Shown here: positions 6,707 through 17,735 of the stretch, piece after piece
Position numbering within the stretch: the stretch's first letter is position 1
Layout of the letters: every line of letters starts with the position of its first letter
Origin: a virus
Virus record (IMG/VR): IMGVR_UViG_3300001848_000215
Location: 1 to 22,651 of that record
Length of the DNA stretch: 22,651 nt
Reading direction: 5' to 3' (one strand)
Position numbers and translations under genes: made by a program
The notes under the pieces: generated by a model
Database searches by the model: none
What the model was told of the DNA's origin: nothing
The model's input: only the letters and a program-made list of their open reading frames with translations

Positions 6707-8886
6707 CCATTGCCTATACGCCGCGTGATGCGTTTATGCCGTTTCACAACCGGACGCAGCGTTGGGCTTGCCTTGTGGCGCATCGGCGGGCGGGCAAGAC
6801 TGTAGCGGCGGTCAATGACATTATCCGGGCGGCGGTTACTTGCAAGACGCACAACCCGCTTTTTGGGTACATAGCCCCGTACCGCAGTCAGGCCAAGAGC
6901 GTGGCCTGGGATTATCTGAAGCGTTTCTGCAAACCAATCACAAAGGCTGCCAATGAAGCTGAATTGCAGATTGATCTTGTCAATAATGCGCGCATTCGTC
7001 TTTTCGGTGCTGACAATGCTGATGCTATGCGCGGTTTGGGTTTTGATGGTATTTTTATGGACGAGTATGGCGATTTTCGACCTTCTGTATGGGGTCACGT
7101 CATTCGCCCTACGCTTTCTGATAAACAGGGTTGGGCCGTTTTCGGTGGTACTCCAAAAGGTAAAAACCAATTTTGGGACATTTACCAGACGGCAAAGTTA
7201 GCGCCCAAAGAATGGTTTCTTTTGAGGCTTACGGCGACGGATAGCGGGATACTGCCGCAGTCTGAATTGGATGCTGTCAAGGCGCAGATTACGACTGACC
7301 AGTATATGCAGGAATATGAGTGCAGCTTTGAGGCTGCGATTCTGGGCGCGTATTATGGCGTTGAGATGCGGGAGGCGTCTGACCAGGGCCGCATTACTGC
7401 GGTGCCGTATGATCCCAGCATTCCGACATATACGGCATGGGATTTGGGGTATCGAGATGATACCGCTATTTGGTGGTATCAGGTGGTCCGCAATGAAATA
7501 CACATTATCGATTATTACGCTGTTTCCGGTGCTGGTATTTCTGATATTGCTAAGGTTGTTCTCGAAAAGCCTTACCATTACGGCAAGCACTATCTGCCGC
7601 ATGATGCGCGGGCTAAGACACTTGCTGCACAGGGCAAGTCTGTCATTGAGCAGTTGGCTGAGTTTCTTGGCTTAGCAAACATTGGCGTGGTGCCTGATCT
7701 TGGCGTTCAGGACGGCATACAGGCTGTTCGTATGACGCTGCCCAAGTGCTGGTTTGATGAATTGAAATGCCATGATGGCATTGAGGCTTTGCGCCAGTAT
7801 GAGCGTGAGTTTGATGAAGACAAAAAGGCGTTTCGCACAACGCCCAAGCATAACTGGTGCTTTACAGGCGACACAAAGGTATTGACACGTTACGGAACGT
7901 ATCAGATGATAGACCTACCGTATAGCGGAGAGGTTCTGACATCATGTGGCTGGAAGCAATACATCAATCCGCGTGTGACGCGGAAAAATGCCCGTCTTGT
8001 GGAAGTAACGTTCAAAGACGGTCTTATGGTGAAATGTACGCCGGATCATGCATTCAAAACGGAATTCGGGTGGATATCCGCAGAACACCTAACGCCGGGT
8101 ACAGTGATCCAATCTTCCTTGACCCAATTACCCAATATTTTGACGGTGGCTTATACCGCATTTGGGAAAGCGATAAATACTTTAAGCGCGGCGGCAAATA
8201 CTTGCACCGAGACGTTTGGAAAGCGGCTTTTGGCGTCATTCCAGACGGATGCCATATTCATCACAAAGACAGCAACCGCGCAAACAACAGGCTTTCAAAT
8301 CTCGAATGCTTGCCTGCCGCAATACATCTTCGCGAAACGCTTGCTGGACAACCAAAAAGAACATTCACTCAAGAAGCTCGCACTTCAGCAGCAGAATGGC
8401 ATCGTTCCGACGCAGGACGTTTATGGCACAAACGCCATGCAGAGCGTTCTAAAAGTTGGACAAAATGGAAGCGTGAATCAAAAGAATGCCTTGAATGCAA
8501 AAACACGTTTGATGCGTTGGTTCGCAAATCGGGGCACGCTCAAAAATATTGTTCATCCGCTTGCAAAGTTAAAGCATATCGCAACCGAGGCGGTCAAAAG
8601 CAAGCGGCAGCTCGTTATAGAGAACGTCAAAAATCTAAATGAAACTTCTGACGTTTGGTGCTTGACAGTGCCGGGCGCAGAAGAATTTTCCTTACAAAAC
8701 GGTGCGCTGGTTCATAATTGTTCGCATCCTGCAGATGCGTTCCGCATGATGGCGATTGCGTGGCGTGGCGAGGATTCCAAAAAGATTGTGGCTTTTGACC
8801 GTCCGTTGATTGTTGGTCCCGGCAATACGGCGACATTGAATGATATGTGGGCGGCAAACAAACCTAAGAGAAGGGCTAGATTATGA
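6688..8886 (+). CDS. terL: terminase large subunit precursor interrupted by an intein
   Basis: A 732-codon precursor that should splice to a 445-residue TerL (residues 1-390 joined to 678-732), the usual size. The ATPase domain has Walker A RRAGKT (33-38), Walker B IFMDEY (122-127) and a coupling-type motif FGGTPKGKN (152-160). The RNase H-like nuclease has WDLGYRDDTA (D252), LPHDAR (H305, D306) and, after the intein, SHPADAFR (D683). TerL pumps DNA into the prohead and cuts concatemers. The start is GTG at 6688, inside terS. The end overlaps the next gene by ATGA. The intein is placed so that D683, the last nuclease acid, is only five residues beyond the C-terminal splice junction. TerL is presumably inactive as a nuclease until splicing. 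Confidence 0.93.
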   Translation: MARKEVAIAYTPRDAFMPFHNRTQRWACLVAHRRAGKTVAAVNDIIRAAVTCKTHNPLFGYIAPYRSQAKSVAWDYLKRFCKPITKAANEAELQIDLVNNARIRLFGADNADAMRGLGFDGIFMDEYGDFRPSVWGHVIRPTLSDKQGWAVFGGTPKGKNQFWDIYQTAKLAPKEWFLLRLTATDSGILPQSELDAVKAQITTDQYMQEYECSFEAAILGAYYGVEMREASDQGRITAVPYDPSIPTYTAWDLGYRDDTAIWWYQVVRNEIHIIDYYAVSGAGISDIAKVVLEKPYHYGKHYLPHDARAKTLAAQGKSVIEQLAEFLGLANIGVVPDLGVQDGIQAVRMTLPKCWFDELKCHDGIEALRQYEREFDEDKKAFRTTPKHNWCFTGDTKVLTRYGTYQMIDLPYSGEVLTSCGWKQYINPRVTRKNARLVEVTFKDGLMVKCTPDHAFKTEFGWISAEHLTPGTVIQSSLTQLPNILTVAYTAFGKAINTLSAAANTCTETFGKRLLASFQTDAIFITKTATAQTTGFQISNACLPQYIFAKRLLDNQKEHSLKKLALQQQNGIVPTQDVYGTNAMQSVLKVGQNGSVNQKNALNAKTRLMRWFANRGTLKNIVHPLAKLKHIATEAVKSKRQLVIENVKNLNETSDVWCLTVPGAEEFSLQNGALVHNCSHPADAFRMMAIAWRGEDSKKIVAFDRPLIVGPGNTATLNDMWAANKPKRRARL
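7858..8718 (+). other. intein in TerL (Hint splicing domain)
   Basis: A 287-residue intein, TerL precursor residues 391-677. Block A starts at the nucleophile C391 (CFTGDTKVLTRYGTYQ). Block B is CTPDH with T451 and H454. Block F is SDVWCLTVPGAEEF (654-667). Block G is LVHN followed by C678 of the C-extein. All residues needed for standard Cys/His-Asn/Cys splicing are present. There is no LAGLIDADG or HNH motif in this frame. Residues about 480-650 are Thr/Ala/Lys/Gln-rich and read like the shadow of the HNH gene encoded in another frame of the same DNA. Insertion is at a conserved active-site motif, as is typical of inteins. Confidence 0.93.
7944..8642 (+). CDS. HNH homing endonuclease encoded out of frame inside the TerL intein
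   Basis: A 232-residue protein read in the -1 (+2) frame relative to terL and lying wholly within the intein DNA. Domains: N-terminal zinc knuckle CPSC (C16, C19); HRDVWKAAFG (88-97), the usual lead-in to phage HNH endonucleases; the HNH core HIHHKD (104-109), N111, N114-N115, NLEC (119-122) and H128; a TSAAEWHRSDAGRLWHKRH segment; and a C-terminal zinc knuckle with C182/C185 and C203/C207. The likely role is cutting intein-free terL alleles so that the element is copied in by repair. ATG 7944 has GGAGAGG 10 bases upstream (7927-7933), and an in-frame TAG at 7923-7925 bars a longer start, so independent internal initiation is the simplest reading. The stop is TGA at 8640-8642. Confidence 0.88.
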   Translation: MWLEAIHQSACDAEKCPSCGSNVQRRSYGEMYAGSCIQNGIRVDIRRTPNAGYSDPIFLDPITQYFDGGLYRIWESDKYFKRGGKYLHRDVWKAAFGVIPDGCHIHHKDSNRANNRLSNLECLPAAIHLRETLAGQPKRTFTQEARTSAAEWHRSDAGRLWHKRHAERSKSWTKWKRESKECLECKNTFDALVRKSGHAQKYCSSACKVKAYRNRGGQKQAAARYRERQKSK

Positions 8887-15852: not shown

Positions 15853-16389
15853 ATGGCTTATTCTTTTACTGAAAATCGCGCTGGTCTTCTCCAGATTGCG
15901 AATACTGACTCCGGCGTGACGATGGCGAATGGCACTTCTGCCATTCCCACGCCCCCGGCGACTCTCGGCATGGTTTGCCGCGCGTTCGATCCTACCTACG
16001 GCGAAGGCGAGTTCATTCTGCTTGTTGGCGTTGCCAACACGGTGGTTGGCTCGCTGGTGACCTACAATGCCACGACTTACCAGACCACCCTGTCGGCCAA
16101 CACGGCCAACCAGGCGACCCCGGTGGCCGTTGCTATGTCGGCTTGCACTGCCGGTCTGTTTGGCTGGTATCAGATTGGTGGCCTCGCGGTTGTCAAGAAG
16201 ACCGCCGTGGCCGTCAATGCCCAGGTTCCGGTTTACCAGTCTGCCACTGTGGGCCGCGTTATGCCCACGGCTGCGTCGGGTAAGCAGGTGCTGGGCGCCC
16301 GTTCGGCCAACCTTGCTACCGTTGCCTCGACTGTTTCGACCGTTGTTGTGTCGATCAATCGTCCGCATCTGCAGGGTCAGACCACCTAA
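15853..16389 (+). CDS. head decoration/stabilisation protein candidate
   Basis: A 178-residue Ala/Thr/Val-rich beta protein without cysteine clusters: PATLGMVCRAFDPTYGEGEF, then ILLVGVANTVVGSLVTYNAT, a central FGWYQIGGLAVVKKTAVAVN and a C-terminal TVSTVVVSINRPHLQGQTT. The segment around WYQIGGLAVVK resembles DUF2190-like capsid cement proteins. Directly following the major capsid gene is the usual place for a decoration protein that clamps capsomers. AAAGGG lies about 8 bases before the ATG. The stop overlaps the next gene by one base (TAATG). Confidence 0.75.
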   Translation: MAYSFTENRAGLLQIANTDSGVTMANGTSAIPTPPATLGMVCRAFDPTYGEGEFILLVGVANTVVGSLVTYNATTYQTTLSANTANQATPVAVAMSACTAGLFGWYQIGGLAVVKKTAVAVNAQVPVYQSATVGRVMPTAASGKQVLGARSANLATVASTVSTVVVSINRPHLQGQTT

Positions 16390-17735
16390 TGATCGTACCG
16401 TCTAACCTGGACGATACGATTCCCGTTGTGTGCAACACGGAAGATCGTGAGATTTTTGGCAACATTACTGCTGCCATTGCCCGTGATCTTCCGTGGTTGC
16501 AGCTTTCAGAGCCGCACGACGGGGTAGCTGTAATTGTGGGGGGTGGCCCTTCTATGAAGCCGCTGCTCCCCATGATTGCCGGTCATAAGGACGCTGGACA
16601 CGCTATTTTTGCCGTAAACGGAACTTTGCCGTCCCTATCCAGCGTTGACGTAACCCCTGACTATTTTGTGCTTTTGGACGCCAGAGCGCACAATCAGGGT
16701 TTTATTTATCCCAACAAGGCCACCAAATACCTGATCGCGTCCCAATGCAGCGACGGCGTTTTTGAGGCCCTAAACGGCCATGACGTCACAATCTGGCATC
16801 CGGCCTATCCTGGCATTCAAGATTACATTGGTGACCGTCTTTGCGCCTTGATTGGCGGCGGGACCACGGTTGGCTTACAGGCCATGAGCATCGCTTTTGC
16901 CATGGGCTATCGCTCGATTCACCTTTACGGCTTTGATTCCAGCTATTCCATGGCCGGGGAAGGCCATGCCTACGCCCAGCCAGCTAACGATGCCGACCCC
17001 CGCGAGGGCTATTGGGTAAACGGCAAGGAATACATTGCGGCGCCCTGGATGGCCCGGCAGGCCATGGAGTTCCAGACCGCTGCCCAACAGCTTGCGGACG
17101 CGGACGCGATCATTCAGGTCCACGGCCACGGGCTTCTTCCCGCCATTGCTAAAGCCATGTCTGAGCCGCCTAAGCCTATGGCGGAAATAGAGAAATATCA
17201 GGCTTTGTGGGGGACCAGCGTTTACCGAGATGTCGCGCCTGGCGAGCTATTTGCTGAACAATTTGTAGAAATAGCCGATCCGGCGCTCACAGATGTCATT
17301 ATTGACTTTGGCTGCGGCACCGGCAGGGGCGGATTAAAGATTGCCAAACTGACCCGGTGTGCTGTAGAACTTGTTGATTTTGCTGACAATTGCCGCGATG
17401 AAGGCAATGACTTGCCATTTACCGTGGCTGACCTGACCAAGCCCATTGGCGTCAGCGGAAACATTGGTTATTGCACGGACGTTATGGAGCATATTGCCCC
17501 CGGCGATGTCCCTGATGTCATTAAAAATATTATGGATTGTGTCGATAGTTGCTATTTCAAAATAGCCCTATTCGATGATAGTATGGGTCAGTTGATCGGC
17601 CACCCGCTTCATCTGTCGGTTTTCCCTAGTGAGTGGTGGCGAGACAATTTCTCTCAATATCACATCAAATACGAACATACGGATGAAGGCTCTGCCTGTC
17701 CCTATGCAACATTTTACGTTGTAAACATCAAATAA
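16389..17735 (+). CDS. DUF115 (MptE/Maf-like) and SAM methyltransferase fusion
   Basis: A 448-residue two-domain enzyme. Residues about 1-260 match DUF115, the domain of MptE-like diphosphokinases and Maf flagellar glycosyltransferases: VIVGGGPSMKPLL (48-60), a DYFVLLDAR strand (91-99) and GGGTTVGLQAMSIAFAMGYR (156-175) followed by LYGFDSSYS. Residues about 280-448 are a class I SAM-dependent methyltransferase: motif I IIDFGCGTGRGG (304-315), an acidic end at ELVDFAD (327-333) and CTDVMEHI (362-369). It lies between head and tail genes. Substrate is unknown; a sugar or nucleotide-sugar modification of a virion or host component is possible. The spacing to the decoration gene (TAATG) implies coupling. 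Confidence 0.8.
   Translation: MIVPSNLDDTIPVVCNTEDREIFGNITAAIARDLPWLQLSEPHDGVAVIVGGGPSMKPLLPMIAGHKDAGHAIFAVNGTLPSLSSVDVTPDYFVLLDARAHNQGFIYPNKATKYLIASQCSDGVFEALNGHDVTIWHPAYPGIQDYIGDRLCALIGGGTTVGLQAMSIAFAMGYRSIHLYGFDSSYSMAGEGHAYAQPANDADPREGYWVNGKEYIAAPWMARQAMEFQTAAQQLADADAIIQVHGHGLLPAIAKAMSEPPKPMAEIEKYQALWGTSVYRDVAPGELFAEQFVEIADPALTDVIIDFGCGTGRGGLKIAKLTRCAVELVDFADNCRDEGNDLPFTVADLTKPIGVSGNIGYCTDVMEHIAPGDVPDVIKNIMDCVDSCYFKIALFDDSMGQLIGHPLHLSVFPSEWWRDNFSQYHIKYEHTDEGSACPYATFYVVNIK

Follow-up and report, generated by a model that had tools for sequence, protein, structure and literature searches.

We have found, in the DNA of a virus, a mobile class 1 intein located in the nuclease domain of the large terminase subunit TerL, which is very probably built as two overlapping genes: the product of the terL frame would perform the splicing and an independently translated HNH endonuclease, read from another frame of the same DNA, the homing. 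The stretch analysed (the window) comprises 22,651 nucleotides, positions 1-22,651 of the IMG/VR record IMGVR_UViG_3300001848_000215. An earlier note had proposed, from the letters of this DNA, that splicing and homing are separated here into two proteins from overlapping frames, a proposal supported by sequence comparison and by structure models. Homologues that routinely break the HNH frame and keep the TerL frame, or a frameshift or sequencing error joining the two frames, were to count against it, and neither was found. The features of the locus are collected in Table 1.

Table 1. Position of the terL gene, its intein and the nested HNH gene in the window, with the basis of each assignment.
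Feature	Position	Strand	Basis
terL, encoding the large terminase subunit and containing an intein; GTG start, precursor of 732 aa	6688..8886	+	PF03237, PF17289, phrog_2; tblastn matches to phage terminases
Class 1 intein, 861 bases, 287 aa, terL residues C391-N677; C1, block B TPDH, terminal HN, +1 Cys	7858..8718	+	Pfam, AlphaFold2, Foldseek
TAG stop in the HNH frame, upstream of the ATG with 18 open bases between	7923..7925	+	Sequence
GGAGAGG, Shine-Dalgarno-like, 10 bases before the HNH ATG	7927..7933	+	Modest enrichment over synonymous null
HNH_3 endonuclease gene, 232 aa, nested, -1 frame relative to terL	7944..8642	+	Pfam HNH_3 E 1.6e-15; PHROGs agrees; AlphaFold2
HNH ATG start codon	7944..7946	+	First base always A (74/74), at the wobble position of a terL codon that varies
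HNH N-terminal CxxC (C16, C19), on block B DNA	7989..8000	+	Host wobble T at both Cys codons always
Splicing block B, terL frame; shares its DNA with HNH codons ~16-39, with constraint on both frames	7990..8061	+	Substitution patterns
Intein linker, residues 91-247, terL frame, unstructured	8128..8598	+	AlphaFold2 mostly pLDDT <50; substitutions follow the HNH frame
HNH core, HNH_3 match, residues 85-129	8196..8330	+	No variation at H104, H106, H107, N115, N119 in 26 sequences
HNH C-terminal zinc finger C182, C185, C203, C207	8487..8564	+	All four Cys conserved in each of 26 diverse sequences
Splicing blocks F and G, terL frame	8605..8718	+	Profiles, AlphaFold2, residue check
C-extein with TerL nuclease motif CSHPADAFR	8719..8886	+	Empty relatives join 7857 to 8719, no base lost

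In the terL frame, the only Pfam match within the intein is Intein_splicing (E 7e-11), which bears out the earlier description of an intein at terL residues 391-677 devoid of endonuclease motif in this frame. AlphaFold2 predicted a Hint fold made of intein residues 1-80 and 251-287 (pLDDT 95-98), and Foldseek matched the model to the gp41-1 and DnaB inteins with a probability of 1.0, RecA inteins being also matched. Residues C1, T61, H64 and N287 are invariant in alignment A3, and in the nested inteins described below we observed C1 in 113/113, a terminal N in 113/113 (preceded by H in 105) and C, S or T at position +1 in 113/113. The sequence and fold features of a class 1 intein are present in the window, namely C1, TxxH in block B, a C-terminal N, C/S/T at +1 and the Hint fold. 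Based on the intact catalytic residues and the fold, we infer that the Hint domain excises itself and ligates an active TerL. The terL gene is a single unbroken ORF, and not two ORFs placed around an endonuclease gene as in a fractured gene. Two other ORFs of the window are recorded here: at 16389-17735 a phage ORF matches the MptE-like 6-hydroxymethylpterin diphosphokinase domain (PF01973, E 4e-19), a match not anticipated in such a gene neighbourhood, and at 958-2865 an ORF of 635 aa carries an AAA_25 domain (E 1.5e-34).

The coordinates and the Pfam match agree with what had been claimed for the second gene, a 232-codon ORF lying wholly in the intein, in the -1 frame and overlapping block B, and the GGAGAGG and the in-frame TAG said to precede its ATG were both located. 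Its product contains an HNH_3 domain with a conserved H/N/H core. Structure prediction, called for in the earlier note for both proteins, thus gave a Hint fold in the terL frame and an I-HmuI-like fold in the HNH frame, the latter model having a mean pLDDT of 82 and a best fold match, to I-HmuI (PDB 1u3e), that is weak (prob 0.94, E 0.15). Zinc knuckles had been described on both sides of the HNH core; the C-terminal one holds, with four invariant Cys in 26 HNH proteins, but on the N-terminal side there is one invariant CxxC pair only (C16, C19), and a complete zinc site is not established.

The nested layout is general. A search of IMG/VR with the HNH protein gave 33 loci, and an alignment of this protein at least 576 relatives, 80 of them kept, as well as 31 in bacterial genomes. 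Loci were classified with HMM profiles for the intein N-part, the intein C-part and the HNH. In this way, with each locus entered once, we counted 113 nested loci; a few of them are nearly identical to each other or represent one contig present in both of two collections. The HNH is in the -1 frame relative to the host gene in every one of them. The sequences are viral or prophage, cover several TerL families and several bacterial phyla, and go down to about 31% in HNH identity; the host protein was a terminase in 20/20 tested. Intein parts and HNH were on separate ORFs in 7 loci, and about 20 matches had no intein; an in-frame HNH fusion, as in a canonical HEN-bearing intein, was found in 0 of the classified loci. 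A blastn search of the intein DNA against phage records gave no match. Annotated phages with the nesting are Tetrasphaera phage TJE1, Acinetobacter phage Highwayman and Rhodobacteraceae phage LS06-2018-MD07; for the first two, terL alone is annotated at the locus, an annotation hazard by which the second gene is missed.

We also searched with a profile of intein blocks A-B alone, with no condition on the HNH, and obtained 80 loci, 74 of them distinct. Both frames are intact in 72/74, in a test limited by the fact that the profile itself was built from nested examples; of the other two, one runs off its contig and one (L256) is a mini-intein whose HNH core was lost by a large deletion, the host frame being open. 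All the complete inteins from this search have an open HNH (72/72), so that a broken HNH frame beside an intact TerL frame was seen in a single case, caused by a large deletion. Since the queries were built from nested examples, degenerate or in-frame forms may be under-sampled. The intein DNA of the window does contain an endonuclease gene; true mini-inteins are L256, L046 (Podoviridae ctRVW222) and the second intein of L048 (Microcystis phage Mic1), the last two lying without HNH in the same TerL nuclease motif. A TerL with two inteins was also observed (L026:1305-4856), an in-frame LAGLIDADG one upstream and a nested-HNH one in the nuclease motif.

Several observations indicate that the element is mobile. 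Two relatives (L140 and L141) have exact empty sites, with the flanks joined and no base lost, and the motif is empty in 66/80 of the closest terL genes. Metagenome 3300020044 holds both a filled allele (L002) and an empty one (L141). In addition, the TerL of L149 is 98% identical over residues 1-395 and is without this intein; four codons downstream it has an unrelated intein (L149:3683-4510) with a nested HNH in the same frame and an Ala-to-Cys change at the +1 junction, which suggests a +1 Cys supplied by the element itself. Finally, HNH identities of 58-64% were found alongside extein identities of just 25-35%. Mobility is deduced from the exact empty sites, the second nested intein in a near-identical phage and these mismatched HNH and TerL identities. 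That homing by this HNH, and not other recombination, is responsible is what the exact empty sites and the horizontal distribution suggest.

In a tree of the HNH proteins the nested, split and free states are intermixed, with at least 4 forced changes for the nested state; for instance, a free HNH (L038) stands beside a nested one (L041) with a support of 97. The split state, in the order TerL-IntN, HNH and IntC-TerL, occurs within the same HNH family in L042, L114, L120, L129, L130 and probably L045. In the last of these (Vibrio phage 1.238.A, NC_055735) the ORF annotated as 'hedgehog/hint domain protein' (L045:3530-3871) resembles the IntC-TerL half of a fractured terL, and the HNH ORF between the terL halves is unannotated. 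In Lactobacillus phage CL2 (L042) the annotated large terminase stops just past intein block B, and the C-terminal half with IntC (2487-2771), which overlaps the end of the HNH gene, is unannotated. Brochothrix phage BL3 (L050) has a split TerL intein with a 74 aa HNH remnant between the halves, apparently a stage of decay.

HNH proteins of some phages function in DNA packaging, and the HNH could accordingly be a packaging accessory of the terminase, similar to HK97 gp74, that the intein does nothing more than shelter. The constant choice of terL as host gene (20/20), the free-standing HNH relatives that adjoin terL and the cooperation between HNH proteins and terminases discussed in PMC10448857 would fit such a role. 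However, the 66 empty sites, the decoupling of HNH and extein identities, the HNH_3 domain with its I-HmuI-like fold and the mini-inteins without HNH at the same motif all speak against it, and we consider the accessory role unlikely.

How the two frames coexist was examined from their stops and their substitutions. Synonymous resampling of the window alone kept an open terL frame in about 7-9% of trials (P about 0.07-0.09). Over the 113 nested loci, 2.2-3.4 host-frame stops are expected per ORF and 0 were seen; the corresponding frame of free-standing or split relatives contains stops in 16/18. It is the comparative data, and not the window by itself, that exclude a terL frame open by chance. 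The remaining alternative frame has a mean of 16.1 stops (15.9 expected), as against 5.0 expected in the host frame with uniform synonym use, and the relative frame is probably always -1 because the other one would carry about 16 stops.

Substitution rates by codon position were determined on 33 disjoint pairs. In the extein, read in the host frame, the difference rates at positions 1/2/3 are 0.30/0.24/0.53, and downstream of the HNH, also in the host frame, 0.15/0.13/0.50. In the linker, read in HNH codons, they are 0.22/0.18/0.45, indicating selection on the HNH frame and drift of the host frame. Where the HNH overlaps block B the rates are 0.22/0.13/0.18, and the wobble signal is gone, which is what constraint on both frames would produce. 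An earlier set of 27 pairs, more closely related but overlapping, is in agreement. About 200 codons of the terL frame had been regarded as an otherwise meaningless linker; this applies to intein residues ~91-247 but not to the block B overlap.

At the start of the HNH gene, the A of the ATG falls on the third position of a host codon that takes nine forms (TCA, CCA, TTA, CAA, CTA, CGA, GTA, ATA, GAA), and this A is conserved in 74/74. Likewise, the first bases of the codons for Cys16 and Cys19 are host wobble bases and are T in 63/63 unique sequences; in the exteins just 15% of leucine codons end in T. These counts are phylogenetically dependent, yet the host residues changed repeatedly and the shared base never did. 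Upstream of the ATG, the enrichment in Shine-Dalgarno-like matched bases is weak (5.1 vs 4.7 under the synonymous null), and RNA folding around the start (z -1.8) was uninformative. Considering the selected start codon together with the selection on the HNH frame, the HNH is presumably translated from 7944.

If a -1 ribosomal frameshift from terL were the way to the HNH, the product would be a TerL-IntN-HNH fusion and the endonuclease would still be a domain of the precursor. The relative frame is indeed always -1, as such a shift needs, but stop density accounts for this choice. In many loci the HNH frame has a stop at a distance of 6, 12 or 18 nt ahead of its ATG, so that nearly no room is left for a shift, and the ATG is invariant at a host wobble base. 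In addition, in the more distant group II most HNHs start 215-290 nt after C1, past block B, with their own start codon; an HNH-frame stop lies 3-23 codons upstream of the HNH match, the start codon being unsettled in L037 and L127. We thus find frameshifting very improbable. As the group II HNHs are without an N-terminal extension, it was most likely in the clade of the window that the endonuclease became extended over block B.

Two other explanations have hardly any probability left. In the first, the insert would be an RNA intron carrying an HNH ORF, without protein splicing of the terL frame; intron-encoded HNH genes are common in phages (PMC11855218), but the intein blocks and the Hint fold are complete, the host frame is open in all nested cases and an Rfam search for introns at the gathering threshold gave no match, group I introns included, so that this candidate was rejected. 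In the second, an ordinary in-frame HNH intein was shifted by a recent frameshift or an assembly artefact and the terL frame stayed open by luck, as the P value of the window taken alone would allow, but the comparative data refute it: the nesting is common to 113 diverse loci, no in-frame version was found among those classified and constraint is dual over block B. The frameshift join or sequencing error against which the earlier note had warned is excluded by these 113 loci, by selection on the start codon and by the stops that the HNH frame has as close as 6-12 nt before the ATG.

The two-gene reading leads to the following model. Translation of the mRNA in the terL frame would give TerL with the intein, from which the Hint domain would excise itself while TerL is ligated. 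From the internal ATG, one frame back on the same mRNA, a free-standing 232-aa HNH_3 endonuclease with a zinc finger would be made. In a mixed infection this endonuclease most likely cuts an intein-less terL at the same motif, and repair of the break would copy the intein into the cut gene. The terL frame would stay open by necessity, with free drift between blocks B and F.

Textbook inteins have their endonuclease as an in-frame domain. On balance, we favour the view that the nested loci represent a widespread class of mobile inteins, so far undescribed, with one gene for splicing and an overlapping one for homing, that one lineage overprinted a new endonuclease N-terminus on block B, which would make this a truly dual-coding homing element, and that members of one endonuclease family pass between the nested, the split-gene and the free-standing state. 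Such a class divides splicing and homing into two proteins while the host gene stays continuous; the endonuclease need not be produced, nor evolve, together with the terminase. The host frame, for its part, must remain open over a long stretch whose amino acids hardly matter. These loci are natural material for studying the origin of overlapping genes, the interconversion of in-frame, split and free-standing homing genes, and the reason why relative frames are fixed.

Among known systems, fractured genes with split inteins and free-standing endonucleases were reportedly described by Dassa et al. in 2009. They share with the window the distribution of splicing and homing between separate proteins; their host gene is in two pieces, whereas the terL of the window is one continuous ORF. 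The HNH homing endonucleases of the I-HmuI type belong to the same role class as the nested HNH and provide its best, though weak, fold match. I-HmuI itself is encoded within a group I intron, unlike the HNH of the window, for which no intron match was obtained.

Closest to our case is the ShiLan domain (PMC11855218, 2025), an out-of-frame HNH in the open host frame of a methylase with no detectable intein or intron. In both, the insertion is open in the host frame and carries, in a second frame, an HNH gene with zinc fingers whose start codon is just inside the insertion; the distribution of both is mobile. ShiLan, which we compared by its description, is thought to stay in the methylase and has a GTG start and no visible RBS; in the window the HNH is enclosed by a complete intein, terL is the host gene and a splicing block lies within the overlap of the frames. 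On overlapping reading frames of actinophages, PMC11855218 cites bioRxiv 10.1101/2025.01.02.630785 (Gosselin et al.) and Gorbalenya 1998, 'Non-canonical inteins'. The earlier note knew of no precedent. This stands for inteins, as we found none described with an endonuclease read from another frame in the literature searched (10.1101/2025.01.02.630785, Dassa et al. 2009 and Gorbalenya 1998 being outside its scope), but not for an out-of-frame HNH in an open host frame, which ShiLan had already provided without intein.

The intein in the dCTP deaminase of cyanophage CL131 also combines a Hint splicing domain and an HNH_3 endonuclease in one unit (PMC6293099), but its endonuclease belongs to the precursor as an in-frame domain, and that of the window is a separate protein from another frame. 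According to the literature, HEN domains are inserted at one conserved site of inteins; unlike in these canonical HEN-bearing inteins, the endonuclease of the window clade starts before block B. Finally, the mycobacteriophage inteins of Kelley et al. 2016 (PMC5050341) are likewise found in terL; they occupy its ATPase domain, while inteins of the window type sit in the nuclease motif instead.
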